NCBI GenBank assembly: GCA_040183005.1
Contig: JAMPIW010000001.1
Location: forward strand, 186,001 to 250,000
DNA: 64,000 nucleotides
Reading direction: 5' to 3'
DNA from: Gammaproteobacteria bacterium
GTDB lineage: Bacteria; Pseudomonadota; Gammaproteobacteria; Ga0077554; Ga007554
Shown here: piece by piece, positions 27,726 through 36,676 of the stretch
How positions within the stretch are numbered: the stretch's first letter is position 1
How the letters are laid out: each line of letters opens with the position of its first letter
Translations under genes and position numbers: made by a program
Notes under the pieces: generated by a model
The model's database searches: none
Told to the model about the DNA's origin: nothing
What the model saw: only the letters and a program-made list of their open reading frames with translations

Positions 27726-29291
27726 TCAGGTCTCCTTAATGAATTTTGTGCTTACATTCTTGCGCGGCTTGGCGGCGATATCAGTCCGTTCTGCCTTGAT
27801 GCGTGCCAGCAGCTTGGAGGCGGGTTCGTCGTGCGGGTCTTGCGGCACCAGCTGGCCGGAGAAGGCTTTTTTCAGGATGGACTGGCGCAGGGCTTCGGCT
27901 TGTTGCAGAGCGGTGGTGATGGTTTGGTCGAGTTGGTCGGCTTCAGACAGCTTTGCTTCCAATTCTTGAACAATTTGTTGTTGTTCCTCTTTGCCTGGAA
28001 TAACAAACCGAAAAGATTTGAATTCACGAATTGGCAACTGAGGTTGTGCAGTTCCAGATTGAAGCTTCTCAATTTGCCTCGTGATGATTGGTGCATTCAA
28101 ATGGTAGTAGAGAAAATCAGGAGTTAAAGAAACGTCGTAATTTCTGATGAGGAACATTCCTGAATTTATTCTGACATGTTCATATTTAATTGCATCGTTG
28201 TAATGTGCAATGTTGCCCAAGGTTCCACGGCTCGTAAAAACAATGTCGCCTCGTTTGAGCGTTCCCTTCCTCAGTGCCAAGTGTTTTTGCTCGGAGATAA
28301 AACTATTCTCTTGAAATGCGAAGCCTCGCTTCGTTACATTTTTCGCATTAAGAAATAGGCAATATCCGGAATCAGAAAAATCGCCTTTAGTTGGGTAATG
28401 TTCCCCTCTGTCTCCATCTTCGATATCGCAGAGATTTTCAACACAAAGCGCAATCCATCCTTCTGGCAATTCGGTCAGCTCTTCTTGGGTGAGCGGCGGC
28501 AGGGGTTTGAGGGCTTTGGGTTTACTGCCTTGTTTGCCGGTGGCTTCCCAGTCGGCGAGTTGTTGCTGGTGGCGTTGCGTGCGCTCTTGCTGGATGCGCT
28601 TGAGCAAGGTGTCGGCGGTTTCGAGTTTGTCCTGATTCTCCGCGCGCCACTGCGCGGTGAGCTTGCCCTCGAAGGCGTGTTTCAGCAGCGCTTGGCGATA
28701 CACCTTGAGCTGCGCGCGGGCGGTCTTCAGGTTTTCGATGCCCTTGTCCAGCTCGGAAAACAGCTCTTCGATTTTGGCGACGATGCGGTGTTGTTCATTG
28801 ATAGGTGGAAGAAGCATCTGAATTGCTGCCACATCTCCGCGACGAACAGATGGTACCGCCGTAGCAACCGAAAATTTCCCGAGGTCCTGCGTGTTTAGAA
28901 AATAGAAGAGAAAGTCTGCGCTGATGATTTTCGTGTTTGGGACTATTCCCATAACATTATTATCAAAGAGCATTTCCCGGCTTGTAACCAAGCGATAGTT
29001 GCCTTTTAGTGCTTCTCCAATTTTGGGAAAAACAATCGTGCCCTTCGGAAATATCTTTGCCTTAATTTCCTCCCGAACCTCTTCAGAGATAAAGTGGTTC
29101 GCGCTATCTATACATTTTTGTTTTGCGCGGAATGCTTTGGAAATATCGCCAACTTTTGCGAATGGAAATTCACCAGATGAGTCACCTTGATATTCCTTGG
29201 GAAACCCAGAGCCAGAGATTAATTCTGATGACACGACTTCAATATTTGCAGCCGTCCAGCCAAATGGAATTTCTTTCTCTTCTCCGTTCAC
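27726..29291 (-). CDS. hsdS: Type I restriction-modification specificity subunit HsdS
   Basis: A 521-residue DNA-recognition subunit with two target-recognition domains (about 1-180 and 280-440), each followed by a conserved helical spacer (LPPINEQHRIVAKIEELFSE and IPGKEEQQQIVQELEAKLSE). Its start overlaps the last four bases of hsdR. The recognition-domain stretches (about 28010-28440 and 28800-29280) are visibly AT-richer than the spacers, as expected for horizontally exchanged recognition domains. The DNA target cannot be predicted. Confidence 0.94.
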   Translation of the reverse strand: MNGEEKEIPFGWTAANIEVVSSELISGSGFPKEYQGDSSGEFPFAKVGDISKAFRAKQKCIDSANHFISEEVREEIKAKIFPKGTIVFPKIGEALKGNYRLVTSREMLFDNNVMGIVPNTKIISADFLFYFLNTQDLGKFSVATAVPSVRRGDVAAIQMLLPPINEQHRIVAKIEELFSELDKGIENLKTARAQLKVYRQALLKHAFEGKLTAQWRAENQDKLETADTLLKRIQQERTQRHQQQLADWEATGKQGSKPKALKPLPPLTQEELTELPEGWIALCVENLCDIEDGDRGEHYPTKGDFSDSGYCLFLNAKNVTKRGFAFQENSFISEQKHLALRKGTLKRGDIVFTSRGTLGNIAHYNDAIKYEHVRINSGMFLIRNYDVSLTPDFLYYHLNAPIITRQIEKLQSGTAQPQLPIREFKSFRFVIPGKEEQQQIVQELEAKLSEADQLDQTITTALQQAEALRQSILKKAFSGQLVPQDPHDEPASKLLARIKAERTDIAAKPRKNVSTKFIKET

Positions 29292-32071
29292 GCTACTAGA
29301 ACCTCATTCAATTCATCCAGCAACCTATCCATTCGCGCCCCGAACAACTGATACATTCTGCCCAGCCCACCTTGCCCGTCGAACGGTGACATTTCCAGAT
29401 CGTCGCGCTCGATGTGGAAGGAATTGGCGACGTGGTCGCGTACCATGCGCAGCCATTCCATTTGTTCTTCATTGAATTTTTCGCTTCCGCCGGAGTGGTG
29501 TTTCATGATCCAGTTCTGAAAGTTGCGGCGCACGGTGTCGTCGAAGGTGGAGAGCTTGGCATCCATGCCGCAGACGCGGCGGATGAGCGCGACCAGTGCG
29601 GTGAGTTCGCTGACGGGCTGCGCGCCTTTATAGTCGTCCAGCTGGCGGTAGGCTTGCCACACATACAGAGGAGCGAGCTTGGGTTTGTCGGCCTTGAGTT
29701 TGTCCAGCACCTGGCGGATGAGGTCATAACTGAGTTCGCGTCTTCTTTGCGGCTGGCTGAAGAAGATGGTGAGCGCTTCGATGTTGTCGCGGTTGGCTTT
29801 GAGATAATCGGCGAATTCAGCGGTGAGGGCTTGCGCATTGGTTGCGGCATTCTTGTCCCATTCGGCGCGTAATACGGTGTCGATGTTGTCGTGGTCGATG
29901 GTCTGTTCCTTGTCGCGGCGGATGGTGTCGATGAGTTCGATCAGTTCGCCGTTCAATACTTTCGCGGCTTCGCTTACCAGTTGCTCTTGTGCCTGCTGGC
30001 GTTTGTCGTCGCCGGGGTCGGTGCCGATGGGCTGACCTGCCAGCTCCAAGGCGCGGGCTTCGATGTTGTCGGCGTCGATTGCACCGAACAGTCTGCCGAT
30101 CAGTTGGGTGAGTTCCAGACCGTCGGCGGCTTCGCGGATGCGGCGCTGGTCGTCGGCATCGAGTTGTTTGTTGAGCCGCGCCAGGCGTCCGGCGAGTGAG
30201 CTGACGGTGTCATCGTCGGTTGCACCCATCATCACGCTCATGGCCAAATCCTTGAGCGGCACGCTGGGCTTGGTGATGAGCGGCTGGCTGGCGGTTTTGA
30301 GCGACCGGGTGACGCCAATGGCGTCGACGATGACGTAGTGGGTCTTGGCGCTGACGGCGGAGGGAGTGACTTTCTTCAGGTCGTCCATGTCCAGCGTGCG
30401 GGTACCGCGCCCCTTCATCTGCTCGAAGTAGTTGCGGCTTTTGACGTCGCGCATGAAGAGCAGGCACTCCAGCGGCTTCACGTCGGTGCCGGTGGCGATC
30501 ATGTCGACGGTGACGGCGATGCGCGGGTAGTAGGCGTTGCGAAAATCGGCCAGTACCGATTTGGGGTCTTCCTCGATCTTGTAGGTGAGCTTTTTGCAGA
30601 AGGCGTTGCCCTCGCCAAATTCCTCGCGCACGGTCTGGATGATGTCGTCGGCGTGGCTGTCGGTCTTGGCGAAGATCAGTGTCTTGGGCACTTCGGTGCG
30701 GCCGGGGAAGATCTCCGGCAGTTTGTCGCGGAAGGTGCGGATGACGGTGCGGATCTGGTCGGGGTTGACGATGTTGCGGTCGAGCTGCGTGGCGGAATAG
30801 GCCTCGTCTTCGTCCTGCTGTTCCCAGCGTTTTTTGCGCGTGAGTTTTTCGCGCCGCTCGATTTGCTGATGGGCGCTGATCTGCGCGCCTTGCTGGGTGA
30901 TCTGTGTTTCGATCACATAGACTTCATTGCCGACGTTCACGCCATCGGCCACCGCTTTTTCGTGGCTGTAGTCGCTGACAACGTTCTTCTTGAAAAAGCC
31001 GTAGGTGCGGTTGTCGGGGGTGGCGGTGAGGCCGATGAGGCTGGCATCGAAATAGTCGATCACCTGTTGCCAGAGGTTGTAGATGGAGCGGTGGCATTCG
31101 TCGATGAAGATGAAGTCGAAAAACTCCGGCGGGATTTTTTCGTTGTAGACGACGGGCATCGGCGTTTTGGGCTGCTTCAGTTCTGCGGGGTTGATCTCCT
31201 CGGCGGCATCGTCGAGTGGCGTATCCTTGAGGATGGAGTAGAGGCGCTGGATGGTGCTGATGCAGACCTGGCTGTCCTTGGCGACGAACGAGGATTTGAG
31301 CCGCTGCACGTTGTAGAGCTCGGTGAACTTGCGGTTATCGTCGAGCGGCACATAGGACATCATCTCCTGTTCGGCTTGTTCGCCGAGGTTTTTGGTGTCG
31401 ACCAGAAACAGGATGCGTTTGCCGTGGGCGTATTTGAGCAGGCGGTAAATAGATGTGATGGCGGTGTAGGTCTTGCCGGCGCCGGTGGCCATCTGGATCA
31501 GGGCGCGCGGTTTATCCAACTTGAAAGACGCTTCCAGGTTGGTGATGGCGATCTCCTGGCAATCGCGCAGGCGCAGCTCTTTGGCGGGCAGATGGTTCGG
31601 GTTGAGTGGTGGGATGTGGTGCAAGCGTTCGCGCAAGCTGGCGCTTTGGGATAGCCACTCCTTGAGCGTTTCCGGGCGATGAAAACTGAATACCTCGCGC
31701 GAACGCGGCTTGGGGTCGCGGCCATCGGTAAAGCGGGTGATGATGCCGGTGGTTTCGTACAGGAAGGGCAGCGGCTCCTTGTTGTTGACCCACTTCAGCC
31801 TAGCGCTGGCATAACCTTCAGTTTGCGTTTCATGGGCAGTGAGTCGCTGCCCTTCTTCTTCGCGCTTGGCCTCGATTATGCCCACCGCTTTTTTGTCCAC
31901 AAACAGCACGTAGTCAGCCGGACCGGCATCGGTATGATATTCGCGCACGGCCTGACCTGGCCCGATATTAAAGTCCATCTTCTTGGATGACTGAACGACC
32001 CAGCCGGCCTGCTTGAGCTGGGCGTCGATAGTGTCGCGGGCTTTCTGTTCGGGGTTTTGGTTTTCAGTCAT
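29288..32071 (-). CDS. hsdR: Type I restriction endonuclease/translocase subunit HsdR
   Basis: A 927-residue motor-nuclease. The N-terminal PD-(D/E)xK nuclease is visible in DYVLFVDKKAVGIIEAKRE (about 53-71). Helicase motifs are MATGAGKTYTAI (Walker A, about 194-205), IDECHRSIYN (motif II), GLTATPDNRTYG (motif III) and GRGTRTLDMDDL (motif VI). It is of the EcoEI/EcoKI-like group. All motifs are intact and the frame is uninterrupted. It is the first large gene of the hsdR-hsdS-bro-giy-hsdM operon. Confidence 0.95.
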   Translation of the reverse strand: MTENQNPEQKARDTIDAQLKQAGWVVQSSKKMDFNIGPGQAVREYHTDAGPADYVLFVDKKAVGIIEAKREEEGQRLTAHETQTEGYASARLKWVNNKEPLPFLYETTGIITRFTDGRDPKPRSREVFSFHRPETLKEWLSQSASLRERLHHIPPLNPNHLPAKELRLRDCQEIAITNLEASFKLDKPRALIQMATGAGKTYTAITSIYRLLKYAHGKRILFLVDTKNLGEQAEQEMMSYVPLDDNRKFTELYNVQRLKSSFVAKDSQVCISTIQRLYSILKDTPLDDAAEEINPAELKQPKTPMPVVYNEKIPPEFFDFIFIDECHRSIYNLWQQVIDYFDASLIGLTATPDNRTYGFFKKNVVSDYSHEKAVADGVNVGNEVYVIETQITQQGAQISAHQQIERREKLTRKKRWEQQDEDEAYSATQLDRNIVNPDQIRTVIRTFRDKLPEIFPGRTEVPKTLIFAKTDSHADDIIQTVREEFGEGNAFCKKLTYKIEEDPKSVLADFRNAYYPRIAVTVDMIATGTDVKPLECLLFMRDVKSRNYFEQMKGRGTRTLDMDDLKKVTPSAVSAKTHYVIVDAIGVTRSLKTASQPLITKPSVPLKDLAMSVMMGATDDDTVSSLAGRLARLNKQLDADDQRRIREAADGLELTQLIGRLFGAIDADNIEARALELAGQPIGTDPGDDKRQQAQEQLVSEAAKVLNGELIELIDTIRRDKEQTIDHDNIDTVLRAEWDKNAATNAQALTAEFADYLKANRDNIEALTIFFSQPQRRRELSYDLIRQVLDKLKADKPKLAPLYVWQAYRQLDDYKGAQPVSELTALVALIRRVCGMDAKLSTFDDTVRRNFQNWIMKHHSGGSEKFNEEQMEWLRMVRDHVANSFHIERDDLEMSPFDGQGGLGRMYQLFGARMDRLLDELNEVLVA

Positions 32072-32467: not shown

Positions 32468-33459
32468 TTAACGGAGGTCTTGCATGTTTTTCCCCTGCGT
32501 CGCCAACGGATAAAACGCCCGCGCCACATAAGCAATCACCGCATCAATCTGCTCGTCGGTGAGTACCGATTTCCATGCCGGCATGGTGGCGCCGGGCAGG
32601 CCGTCACGGATGACGTGTTTCAGGCGGGCGCGGGTCATGGCCGCCATGGTGGTACGGCTGGTGAGGTCGCGGGGATGCGGTTGCAGAAAGCTGCCTATCC
32701 AGTTGCGGCCGGTGCCGTCTGCGGCGTGGCAGAAGGCGCAATTTTGCTGAAACAGCGCTTCGCCCTGCCGTTCCTGAGGAGAAAGCCCTGTCAGTTTTGG
32801 GGCAACATCGTGTTTGGCGTAGACGCTCGCGCCTGACACGCTATCAACCGGTTTAGGTGGCGGCTGCCGGTGCGAATAGCCGTTGCGCGGATAGGACAGC
32901 GCGCGCGGATCCCACACTGCGGGGTCTTTGCCGCCCTTGGTGCGCGAACCCTCATGACAGGTGACGCACGAAGACATGAATAATTGCTTGCCGGTGCGTT
33001 GTTCGGCCGTCAGCGCCTCCCATGGTGTATCGAGCGGCATTTCGCCACTAGCGAAGGGATAGGCGGCCCTGTAGCGTTCGTGGTTGGGCCAGCCGTTTTC
33101 CGGCGTATGGTAGCGGGTGTTCTCGGCCTTGCGGGCCATGAATTCCTGGCGCACAAAGTCCACCACCGCTTCTATCTCACGCGGCTTCAACATCCCCTTG
33201 AAGGACATCATGGCGGTGCCGGAGCGTCCGTCCGTCACCGCTCTGATCATTTTCCGGCGGTCAATGGTACGGCTGGTAAAGTCGCGCGGTGGAGGGGAAA
33301 GATAGGTGGCGGCGACGGTCTTGGCGTCGCCGGAATAACCGTGGCAGAAATAGCAGCGGTAGTTATAGATGTCGCGCCCCAGTTCATGGGCGTTACTCGG
33401 CTTTGCCCGGCCGGCACCATAACCGGAAGTGGGGCTGGGATTACCTAGTTGCCGGGGAC
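32468..33459 (-). CDS. Multiheme cytochrome c modules, frame without its own start
   Basis: The first ATG in this frame is at 33250, but the frame is open upstream and contains another heme site: CYFCH (near 33345-33355), after which come CVTCH and CAFCH. Upstream of CYFCH there is no ATG, GTG or TTG and no signal peptide. The frame is entered by a -1 shift at the A9 tract (33460-33468) near the end of the preceding cytochrome gene. The modules (RRKMIRAVTDGRSGTAMMSF, EIEAVVDFVRQEFM) repeat those of that gene. Either frameshifting produces a six-heme fusion, or a one-base error or mutation split one gene. Confidence 0.75.
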
Positions 33460-34644
33460 TTTTTTTTTCTGCTCGTCCGCTTGGATAAATTCCCGGAAAA
33501 CGAACTCGGCGACGTTGGCGATTTCCTGGTCGTTCAATACCTTGCCCCAGGCGGGCATGACCGTGCCGGTCTTGCCGTTATGAATGGCCTTGAGCAGTGC
33601 CGGGCGATTGAGGGTGCGGCGCGCATCGGGATGCAGGAAGTTGCGCGGCTTGGGGCGGATGAACGTGGAGCGCGGCCCCTCGCCGTCGCCCGCCTTGCCG
33701 TGGCAGGTGAAGCAGTTGGACATGTAAAACGCCTGCCCCTTGGCCGGGTCGCCCTTCAAACCATTGGGGAAGGGCTGCGACATGTCGGCATCAACTATCG
33801 CGGCGGGCGGTGGTGGGGGCGACTGTCCTTGCCCGGCGCCCGCAGCGCCGTGGCCGTGCTGCGGAACGGTGGCGGGGGCGCTGGCTGCAGTGTCATCGCT
33901 GGGTACCGCACCGCTCATGAAAGTGGCACGGACATGATCCACCACTGCGGCAATTTCCGGGTCTGACAGGCGCGACTTGAATGACATCATGGCCGTGTCG
34001 GGGCGACCATAGGTCACGGAGTTGATCATGCGCTCCCGCGTCAGCTCCTGCCGCGCCTGTGCCGAGGTGAAATTGCGCGGTGACGGGTTGAGGGTAGTCT
34101 GCGTCCACATCGCCCCCGCACCTTTGTCGCCATGACACACCGCGCAATTGTTGATGTATATGCGCTCACCGAGGCTGGCGTTGGGCGGGATCACCCGCCG
34201 CGAGTTGGAGCCTGGCCCGCCGCGCGGGGCTGTGGCCGTATGGGCGTGCGGTGATGGCGCGGAAGGTGCCGTTACAGATGATGCAGGCGCGGCGGCGGCA
34301 GGTTGGGGCTGCATGAAGGTTGCGCGGATGTAATCTACGATACCCTCGATCTGCTGTGACGACAGGCGGTTACCCCAGCCGACCATGGCGGTGCCGGGAC
34401 GGCCGTGCGTTACCGAGGTGATCATGCGCTCCCGCGTCAGATCCTGACGCACGGCGGGCGCAGTGAAATCGCGCGGTGGGGGATTCAGCGCGCTCCCCGC
34501 CCGGCTCTGGCCGTTGCCTTTTTCGCCATGACAGGCCGAGCAGTATTTCTGGTATAACGCAGGCGCAGAGGGCGCAGACCACGCGCTTACCGGCACAGCG
34601 GCAATCATAGACACCCATACCATCCGCCGCAAAAACTTTGTCAT
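33445..34644 (-). CDS. Triheme cytochrome c with three tandem modules
   Basis: A 399-residue exported protein. The signal peptide (MVWVSMIAAVPVSAWSAP) is followed by three cytochrome c domains with heme sites CSACH (about 35), CAVCH (about 167) and CFTCH (about 309), each with a distal methionine segment of the form GRPGTAM or GKTGTVMPAW. Proline/alanine-rich linkers join them. It ends QKKKVPGN at a stop that overlaps the frame of the next cytochrome. Periplasmic electron carrier; it diverges from the pentaheme gene. Confidence 0.9.
   Translation of the reverse strand: MTKFLRRMVWVSMIAAVPVSAWSAPSAPALYQKYCSACHGEKGNGQSRAGSALNPPPRDFTAPAVRQDLTRERMITSVTHGRPGTAMVGWGNRLSSQQIEGIVDYIRATFMQPQPAAAAPASSVTAPSAPSPHAHTATAPRGGPGSNSRRVIPPNASLGERIYINNCAVCHGDKGAGAMWTQTTLNPSPRNFTSAQARQELTRERMINSVTYGRPDTAMMSFKSRLSDPEIAAVVDHVRATFMSGAVPSDDTAASAPATVPQHGHGAAGAGQGQSPPPPPAAIVDADMSQPFPNGLKGDPAKGQAFYMSNCFTCHGKAGDGEGPRSTFIRPKPRNFLHPDARRTLNRPALLKAIHNGKTGTVMPAWGKVLNDQEIANVAEFVFREFIQADEQKKKVPGN
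33460..33468 (-). other. A9 slippery tract at the junction of two cytochrome frames
   Basis: On the coding strand the codons CAG AAA AAA AAA GTC precede the stop of the triheme gene by four codons. A shift of -1 on the A tract leads into AGT CCC CGG CAA CTA GGT, the open frame of the downstream cytochrome modules. A-tracts of this kind are known sites of frameshifting, polymerase slippage and sequencing error. Confidence 0.55.
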
Positions 34645-34723: not shown

Positions 34724-34753
34724 TTGACACCGTGCGCTATATTTGACTACTGT
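34724..34753 (+). promoter_or_regulatory. Probable promoter of the pentaheme cytochrome operon
   Basis: A perfect -35 TTGACA at 34724-34729, 18 bases, and a weak -10 TACTGT at 34748-34753. It excludes a start codon at 34743 and fits translation from the GTG at 34836. Confidence 0.4.
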
Positions 34754-34835
34754 TAAACCAAAAATTCGCTGGCGCCATAACAAAACAACATGCATGCCCA
34801 TCACTACCTTGCAGAAAACCGGAACGAGGCGATGC

Positions 34836-35582
34836 GTGAACAAGCGTAAATGGTTTATTGCGGGTGGTGTGGCGTTGGCGCTGAATAGTGCGTGGATCGG
34901 CCCCACCCTGAGCGGCACGATCCTTGGCACCAAGCACGACTTCACCGGGCTGAATGCCCGCGTCGGTGTTACTGCGATGTCCGGCGTGGCGTTTTCGGAT
35001 TACGGTTCGCCCTGCGTGTATTGCCATATCCCACCGGACAAGAAGGGCGCCGATTCGGCAGAGACGGGCGGCAATCCGGGCTGGAATCGATTTGTCCCGA
35101 ATCCCGACAGCTACGCCCTGTATGACAGCCGCAGCCTTGAAAACAAGGTGCGCACCCCCAGCCCGATCAGCCTGCTGTGCCTGTCCTGCCACGACGGCAC
35201 CATGGCCCTGGACATGACGGTATTCAAACCCAACGGCTGGAACAGCAGCCAGGACGCCGCACTGCATGTCCGGCTCAATGGCGGCAATGACCTGATGAGC
35301 TGCGGCAAATGCCACAATGGAAACGTGGCGCACAGCATCGAAATCAAGCATCTGGGCACGGATCTGCGCAACGATCATCCCATCTCCATGCAATACGCCG
35401 GGCTGAACCAGAAAGATGTAGATTTCTGGAAGCCCGATGGGCCATATGGCTTCGACAATGGCGTGAAGCTGTACGATGGCAAGGTGGAATGCGCCACTTG
35501 CCATAATGTTCACAACCCGGACATCAACCTGCTGCTGCGTGCCACGTCCGACAGGTTGTGCGAGACATGCCACATCAAATAG
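34836..35582 (+). CDS. Pentaheme c-type cytochrome (paired CXXCH type)
   Basis: The GTG at 34836 is preceded by a purine-rich site and gives a signal peptide or anchor (VNKRKWFIAGGVALALNSAW). Five heme motifs follow: CVYCH, CLSCH, CGKCH, CATCH and CETCH, the last two with the paired-CXXCH spacing and the NVHNPDINLLLR segment. An alternative ATG is at 34794. Mature size is about 220 residues. The next gene, a beta-propeller lipoprotein, overlaps its end, so they are co-translated. Probably an exported electron carrier; the redox partner is unknown. Confidence 0.88.
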   Translation: MNKRKWFIAGGVALALNSAWIGPTLSGTILGTKHDFTGLNARVGVTAMSGVAFSDYGSPCVYCHIPPDKKGADSAETGGNPGWNRFVPNPDSYALYDSRSLENKVRTPSPISLLCLSCHDGTMALDMTVFKPNGWNSSQDAALHVRLNGGNDLMSCGKCHNGNVAHSIEIKHLGTDLRNDHPISMQYAGLNQKDVDFWKPDGPYGFDNGVKLYDGKVECATCHNVHNPDINLLLRATSDRLCETCHIK

Positions 35583-36676
35583 CTCGCCTGTGGCGCGGCA
35601 TGTTTCATGCGCTTTTCATCCTCGCCCTGGCGGGATGCGCCACCGCGCCCAAAGAGGCGGCATTTATTCCGCCGGTCTTCCCCGCCGCCCCTGATGCCCC
35701 GCGCTTCATTTATGAGCGCACCCTCAGCTTCAGCGACAACGTCGAACAGGCCAGCAGTGCCGCCGAACGCCTCAGACTCTTCGCCCTGGGCGAGAAAAAG
35801 GGGGCCAAGGCCCTTATCAAACCGTTCGGCGTCGCCGTTCACCGGGGCCGTGTCTATGTATCCGATACTGCGCAGCGGCTGGTTGTCATGTTTGACATCC
35901 CCGGCGGGCGTTACGTCGAAATCGGTACAGACAAGCCGGGCCAGCTCACCAAGCCGATGGGTATCGACGTCTCCAACCAGGGCGAGGTCTTCGTCTCCGA
36001 TATGACGCTCAAGCGCATCCTGGTCTACGACAGCGACGGCAAATTCCTGCGTTCCATCGGCGACAAAGACACCCTGCAGCGCCCTTCAAGCGTGGCCGTT
36101 AATCCCGACGGCACCCGCCTTTATGTGGCTGATACCGGCGGCGTGGACTCGGAATCGCACCATGTGTATGTGTATGACGCCAAGACGGGCGCACTGCTGC
36201 AAACCATCGGAAAACGCGGCATCAAGGACGGCGAGTTCAACCTGCCCTTGCAGGCTGCCGTCGGCCCCGATGGCACATTGTACGTGGTGGACAAGGGTAA
36301 CTTCCGCGTCCAGGCCTTCCGGCCCGATGGCAGCTTCGCGCTGGCTTTCGGCACGCCCGGACGTTTCCCTGGCCAGTTCGCCAGCCCCAAAGGCATCGCC
36401 ACCGACCCCCAGGGCAACATCTATGTGGTGGACACCGCCTTCGGTAATTTCCAGATCTTCAACAAGGATGGGCAATTGCTGATGTTCATCGGCGAGCGCG
36501 GGTCCTCCGGCGCCCCTGCCAAATACATGCTCCCCGCCGGGATCGATGTCGACGAAGACGGCCGCATCTACGTCGTCGACCAGTTCTTCCGCAAGGTGGA
36601 TGTGTTCAGGCCGGTGGGACTGCGGGCGGATGAGGGGTATGCGGGGAAGGGCTTTCAGGAGAAGGCGAAATTATGA
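35567..36676 (+). CDS. NHL-repeat beta-propeller lipoprotein
   Basis: The ATG at 35567 overlaps the pentaheme gene stop; one at 35600 is also possible. The signal ends in a lipobox (LFILALAGCATA). The body has six NHL-type blades: KPFGVAVHRGRVYVSDTAQ, KPMGIDVSNQGEVFVSDMTL, RPSSVAVNPDGTRLYVADTG, LPLQAAVGPDGTLYVVDKGN, SPKGIATDPQGNIYVVDTAF and LPAGIDVDEDGRIYVVDQFF. It is probably an outer-membrane-anchored scaffold for the neighbouring cytochrome and barrel. It ends in an ATGA overlap with the next gene. Confidence 0.88.
   Translation: MPHQIARLWRGMFHALFILALAGCATAPKEAAFIPPVFPAAPDAPRFIYERTLSFSDNVEQASSAAERLRLFALGEKKGAKALIKPFGVAVHRGRVYVSDTAQRLVVMFDIPGGRYVEIGTDKPGQLTKPMGIDVSNQGEVFVSDMTLKRILVYDSDGKFLRSIGDKDTLQRPSSVAVNPDGTRLYVADTGGVDSESHHVYVYDAKTGALLQTIGKRGIKDGEFNLPLQAAVGPDGTLYVVDKGNFRVQAFRPDGSFALAFGTPGRFPGQFASPKGIATDPQGNIYVVDTAFGNFQIFNKDGQLLMFIGERGSSGAPAKYMLPAGIDVDEDGRIYVVDQFFRKVDVFRPVGLRADEGYAGKGFQEKAKL

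Follow-up and report, generated by a model that had tools for sequence, protein, structure and literature searches.

A conserved −1 shift at an A9 tract probably joins two triheme cytochrome frames into one recoded gene beside an OmcE-like cytochrome

We analysed a 64,000-nucleotide stretch of gammaproteobacterial DNA, referred to below as the window, in which two overlapping triheme cytochrome frames, A and B, very probably constitute one recoded gene whose conserved programmed frameshift yields both a three-heme protein (A) and a six-heme fusion (A-B). According to this model, normal decoding would end shortly after a run of nine adenines (A9) and release the exported triheme A, while a fraction of expression events would slip at A9, either through an extra A in the mRNA or through a −1 step of the ribosome, and read on into frame B to give an exported A-B fusion of six class-I heme modules. 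Frame B would reach the periplasm, the site of heme c attachment, solely as part of this fusion, and recoding would set the ratio of three-heme to six-heme carrier from a single signal peptide. The argument draws on the frame architecture, the conserved tract, B's missing signal peptide, the constant −1 relation, the replacement of the run by G_GGA_AAG and the OmcE-like/NHL neighbourhood, all read at the level of sequence, and from these we infer that both A and A-B are made. No published case of frameshifting in c-type cytochromes was found in the literature searched.

Table 1. Features of the A/B locus and its divergent neighbours (window coordinates).
Feature	Position	Strand	Description
Gene A	33445..34644	minus	Exported triheme class-I-type cytochrome c; 399-aa ORF
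Signal peptide of A	34573..34644	minus	MTKFLRRMVWVSMIAAVPVSAWSA; N-terminal, read from sequence
A9 slippery tract	33460..33468	minus (T9 on plus strand)	Zero frame AAA AAA AAA G
Zero-frame stop of A, TAG	33445..33447	minus	Four codons past A9
Frame B	32468..33577	minus	Triheme cytochrome domain, −1 frame; open from 33577, used from A9 onward
First heme site of B, CYFCH	33341..33355	minus	
Gene C, divergent neighbour	34743..35582	plus	Pentaheme cytochrome, OmcE family; probable true start GTG 34836
NHL-repeat beta-propeller, divergent neighbour	35558..36676	plus	Probable lipoprotein; PF01436 E=8.2e-27

Gene A carries three Cytochrome_CBB3/Cytochrom_C modules (PF13442, E=1.4e-43, in three stretches) with the heme sites CSACH, CAVCH and CFTCH, and frame B matches the same family (PF13442, E=4.5e-32) with the heme sites CYFCH, CVTCH and CAFCH. 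The 3' end of ORF A reads GAG CAG AAA AAA AAA GTC CCC GGC AAC TAG, and a −1 shift at A9 leads from ORF A into frame B. Between the stop upstream of B and CYFCH there was not a single ATG, GTG or TTG, the first ATG listed (33250) lying downstream of CYFCH, and the signal peptide of A is the sole export signal for both products, A and A-B. A sequence-only reading of this DNA had described three hemes in each frame, an A9 tract four codons before the stop of A, entry into B by a −1 shift at that tract, and the lack of a start codon or signal peptide ahead of CYFCH; its coordinates and frames proved right on each of these points.

Relatives were gathered by a scan with B, which gave 80 named loci, and by further genome searches, and every locus was classed by script. 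The final set held 128 non-redundant loci with gene A within reach in 115; since these were picked by similarity to B they are not an unbiased sample, and most come from metagenome-assembled genomes of uncultured bacteria that are not independent of one another, so that the counts below are not counts of independent events. In 67 of the 115 loci, hereafter the frameshift-type loci, B had no leader and lay in the −1 frame relative to A without exception (67/67), whereas in the other 48 B was a separate gene following directly on A, with a start of its own and a leader of hydrophobic or lipoprotein type, all leader calls being made by a hydrophobicity rule and not by a trained signal-peptide predictor. 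At the end of A, a run of A9 (52 loci) or A10 (8 loci) was present in 60 of the 67 frameshift-type loci; the remaining seven comprised five with an in-phase G_GGA_AAG and no run, one with A8 plus G_GGA_AAG (L133), and one with A8 (L146). Thus A9/A10 or G_GGA_AAG stood within the overlap in 66 of 67 loci, L146 being the exception. The 48 two-gene loci had no A-run of eight or more at the end of A (0/48), and their B showed no fixed frame with respect to A, all three being represented. One apparent exception, L077, was rejected when its B was seen to have its own lipoprotein-type leader. Among the frameshift-type loci, B retained three CxxCH sites in 66 of 67, A had a hydrophobic leader by the same rule in 57 of the 59 with a readable N-terminus, and the zero-frame stop ended 4-57 nt past the tract in the relatives.

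Since the tract, the −1 relation and B's missing signal peptide were kept together in 60 loci, we favour a conserved programmed frameshift. The pattern is that of a recoded gene, with overlapping frames, a second frame lacking its own start, and conservation in 67 loci that are all −1. The sequence-only reading had left two possibilities, programmed frameshifting or an indel that had split one gene, and had proposed that orthologues be inspected for a conserved A-tract or a single fused frame; the conserved tract was found in the 60 loci and a fused frame in none (0/67), which upholds the frameshift and discards the indel. It had also held that a shift would be contradicted by orthologues in which the second protein has its own signal peptide. 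Such orthologues exist (48 loci), yet they carry no such tract and make up a part of the family distinct from the recoded one, and hence they represent an alternative arrangement and not a refutation. In the maximum-likelihood tree built from B, loci of the recoded and of the two-gene state were strongly clustered, and when all recoded rows were constrained as one clade the likelihood was above that of the free-search tree (AU p=0.75), so a single origin of the recoded state, as judged from this tree, is not rejected. The recoded state spans at least 12 family-level groups of Gammaproteobacteria; the two-gene state occurs in Gallionellaceae, Rhodocyclales, Burkholderiales, Magnetococcales and some gammaproteobacteria.

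The same comparison bears on three other explanations of the split frames. That a homopolymer sequencing error or a recent mutation has broken one gene, leaving an artefact or a pseudogene, is contradicted by the relatives: no genome showed an in-frame fusion, elsewhere in the family A and B are two genes, and A9 or A10 with B out of frame recurs in 60 loci, which come from many assemblies made independently and represent at least 12 groups at family level. Although the assembly does contain one probable case of this kind (fabF, split at A9 and intact in seven relatives), an assembly artefact at A/B was ruled out by the orthologue comparison, and we give the error-or-mutation explanation as a whole next to no credence. 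Scarcely more credible is phase variation, in which replication slippage at the A-run would toggle the fusion between cells: mononucleotide runs are often phase-variation sites and lengths of 9 and 10 both occur, but the in-frame (ON) state was seen in none of the 67 frameshift-type loci, the A10 loci were still −1, and the −1 relation survives through G_GGA_AAG in a genus without the run. Finally, re-initiation or a non-canonical start might allow B to be translated alone, with export by some other route. We regard this as very unlikely, even though overlapping genes are often translationally coupled and in-frame starts do occur in the linker of some tract loci, because the window, like many relatives, has no start codon at all ahead of CYFCH, a leader-like hydrophobic stretch follows no start in the frameshift-type loci, B requires heme attachment in the periplasm, and the shift signals would be left without explanation.

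The slip-prone sequence within the overlap was conserved beyond coding need (A9/A10 in 60 loci and G_GGA_AAG in 7, one locus having both). In alignments of the junction only the A-run was constant, while the flanks varied, and the remaining coding sequence of the first 43 tract loci, 89,280 bases, held no A-run of nine or more. Lysine codons elsewhere in these genes were mixed (599 AAA to 507 AAG), and despite this the phase-0 tracts read AAA AAA AAA in 48 of 48 cases; at other loci the run occurred in codon phases 1 and 2, again with a length of 9 or 10. The exceptions to this length were the two A8 loci, L146 and L133. Within one genus (g73, of family f71), L132 had A9 only, L131 had A9 plus G_GGA_AAG, L133 had A8 plus G_GGA_AAG, and L126, L127, L136, L140 and L143 had G_GGA_AAG only; other genera of family f71 had A9. 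The heptamer was strictly conserved in seven genomes of genus g73, with GCCGGGAAAG as the constant core of an otherwise variable linker, and in E. coli it belongs to the three −1 motifs of highest efficiency when stimulators are present (PMC4066793). Since the A-run was swapped for G_GGA_AAG in one genus, the comparison shows that the feature kept is the shift itself and not the run.

Whether the polymerase or the ribosome slips was weighed from the form of the signals. At the A9 loci RNA-polymerase slippage is probably the main route, being favoured by runs of 9-10 in all codon phases, the lack of a Shine-Dalgarno excess and the lack of a conserved structure; at the loci with G_GGA_AAG only, the slippage is presumably ribosomal, if they shift at all. 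A run of at least nine regardless of codon phase is the mark expected of transcriptional slippage, and runs of 9 or 10 were found in phases 0, 1 and 2; in many bacterial genomes, selection against slippage becomes visible at a length of nine (PMC1088944), and T. thermophilus dnaX likewise has A9. The alternative, that the same A-B fusion arises in all lineages by −1 ribosomal frameshifting at A_AAA_AAA, is less likely but deserves weight. An in-phase A_AAA_AAA, which like G_GGA_AAG fits the X_XXY_YYZ heptamer, was present at every A9/A10 tract, and one genus had moved to G_GGA_AAG, a strong ribosomal motif in E. coli (PMC4066793). In addition, the direction was −1 in all 67 loci, and the authors of GeneTack took a constant direction as a sign of ribosomal and not transcriptional recoding (PMC3711429); orthologues shifted both ways, by which GeneTack recognizes transcriptional slippage, were not seen among the 67. 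This constancy could, however, also stem from insertion bias or common ancestry. Against ribosomal slippage, seven adenines would suffice, yet whatever the codon phase the runs were 9-10 long; conservation did not extend to the efficient A_AAA_AAG ending; and an upstream Shine-Dalgarno sequence was not enriched (3 of 60 loci against 2.1 expected). Strong hairpins did lie just downstream of the tract in some loci (L019, L025 and L141), but no downstream structure was common to the loci. The hairpin of L019, shortly past A9, had z = −4.9 and those of L025 and L141 were likewise very stable, none of this being family-wide. Folding downstream of the tract had a mean z of about −0.8, compared with −0.15 at two-gene junctions and −0.42 within B coding sequence, and this modest excess could act as a ribosomal stimulator.

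Tracts of A9/T9 are rare in the window's genome (15 sites in 3.33 Mb), and 60 related loci have the same tract in the corresponding position; the A-B tract is therefore far from chance. The other tracts were mostly intergenic or within intact genes. A CheR-type methyltransferase gene was split at A9 (CTGTTAAAAAAAAAG; L171, G000:C7:875132-879140, A-run mid-locus) and was split at exactly this position in two other species of the genus as well (L185/L192 in G004 and L186/L191 in G006), its downstream half continuing in the −1 frame; in another genus, a relative had the gene in a single frame. This gene is a second candidate for A9 recoding in the window's genus. The fabF gene was out of frame at A9 (L168, G000:C7:321010-325018, tract mid-locus) and intact in three other species of the genus, which have GTC plus A7, and in four more relatives; its split is either a homopolymer error in the assembly or a recent indel.

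The neighbourhood of the pair suggests a role in extracellular electron transfer. In a phmmer search of the PDB, the product of the divergent gene C matched the OmcE filament subunit (7tfs, E=1.4e-13) and 9yuq (E=1.5e-10); its AlphaFold model (mean pLDDT 36) was too poor for use. An NHL propeller gene lies alongside, the combination of an OmcE-like multiheme cytochrome with an NHL propeller being that expected of an OmcE-type nanowire cluster. Gene C and the NHL gene accompanied the pair at every one of the 18 tract loci whose flanks were long enough, and a peptidyl-prolyl isomerase adjoined in 22 of 32 two-gene loci with enough flank. By alignment (A1), the C proteins of the recoded group consistently had five CxxCH sites, the fifth being CGKCH in the window, and nearly all of those from two-gene loci had four, so that the subtype of C and recoding go together. 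Directly downstream of the pair, at 27726-32071 on the minus strand, the translations read as type I restriction-modification specificity/restriction-like genes. Judged by this neighbourhood, A and A-B would be periplasmic carriers that feed or drain the OmcE-like extracellular cytochrome. We tentatively suggest, without holding it to be the probable outcome, that in gammaproteobacteria whose OmcE-like cluster has five hemes a conserved recoding event sets the ratio of three-heme to six-heme periplasmic carrier coupling the cell to an extracellular cytochrome wire, and that in one genus slippage of the polymerase at A9 gave way to slippage of the ribosome at G_GGA_AAG by way of genomes carrying both signals.

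Conserved programmed frameshifting is found in only a few cellular genes, the standard ones being dnaX, prfB, cso2 and mxiE, and A/B would add a conserved recoded family in respiration and extracellular electron transfer, an area for which the literature searched yielded no published case. Automatic annotation will tend to label B a fragment or pseudogene or to assign it a false start, and with B misannotated the hexaheme carrier has probably been overlooked. The orthologues, with two genes, with A9, with A9 plus G_GGA_AAG or with G_GGA_AAG alone, amount to a natural experiment, and such a series makes the swap of one recoding signal for another directly testable.

The locus holds the same cast of parts as the Uet pathway of Tenderiales and Gallionella, which comprises an extracellular tetraheme cytochrome, NHL proteins, a peptidyl-prolyl isomerase and periplasmic triheme cytochromes (PMC10734462); with the Geobacter OmcE nanowire it shares an OmcE-like protein, the product of gene C. 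Unlike in Uet, however, the modules of A and B are class-I (CBB3-type) and not cytochrome c7, and the recoded group has a five-heme C with no isomerase detected beside it; neither a porin nor an undecaheme cytochrome was found within the flanks read. As for the recoding, Shigella mxiE and IS elements with A9 or T9 likewise have overlapping frames joined by one extra nucleotide at an A/T run (PMC1088944), but A-B is neither mobile nor a regulator, being a structural electron carrier conserved over many families. The lambda G/GT tail-chaperone and the carboxysome cso2 likewise use −1 recoding to make an extended form of a protein, and the G_GGA_AAG of genus g73 is of the efficient heptamer class demonstrated in E. 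coli (PMC4066793, PMC5009743); the function and protein of A-B are unrelated to these, and most A-B loci use an A-run. The closest parallel in design is dnaX, in which one gene also gives two products in a set ratio, by transcriptional slippage at an A9 run in Thermus thermophilus and by −1 ribosomal frameshifting in E. coli, so that members of one family differ in whether the polymerase or the ribosome slips (PMC1088944, PMC5009743). The proteins are unrelated, and whereas slippage in dnaX leads to the shorter product, in A/B it would give the longer one and provide the second half with its only export signal.
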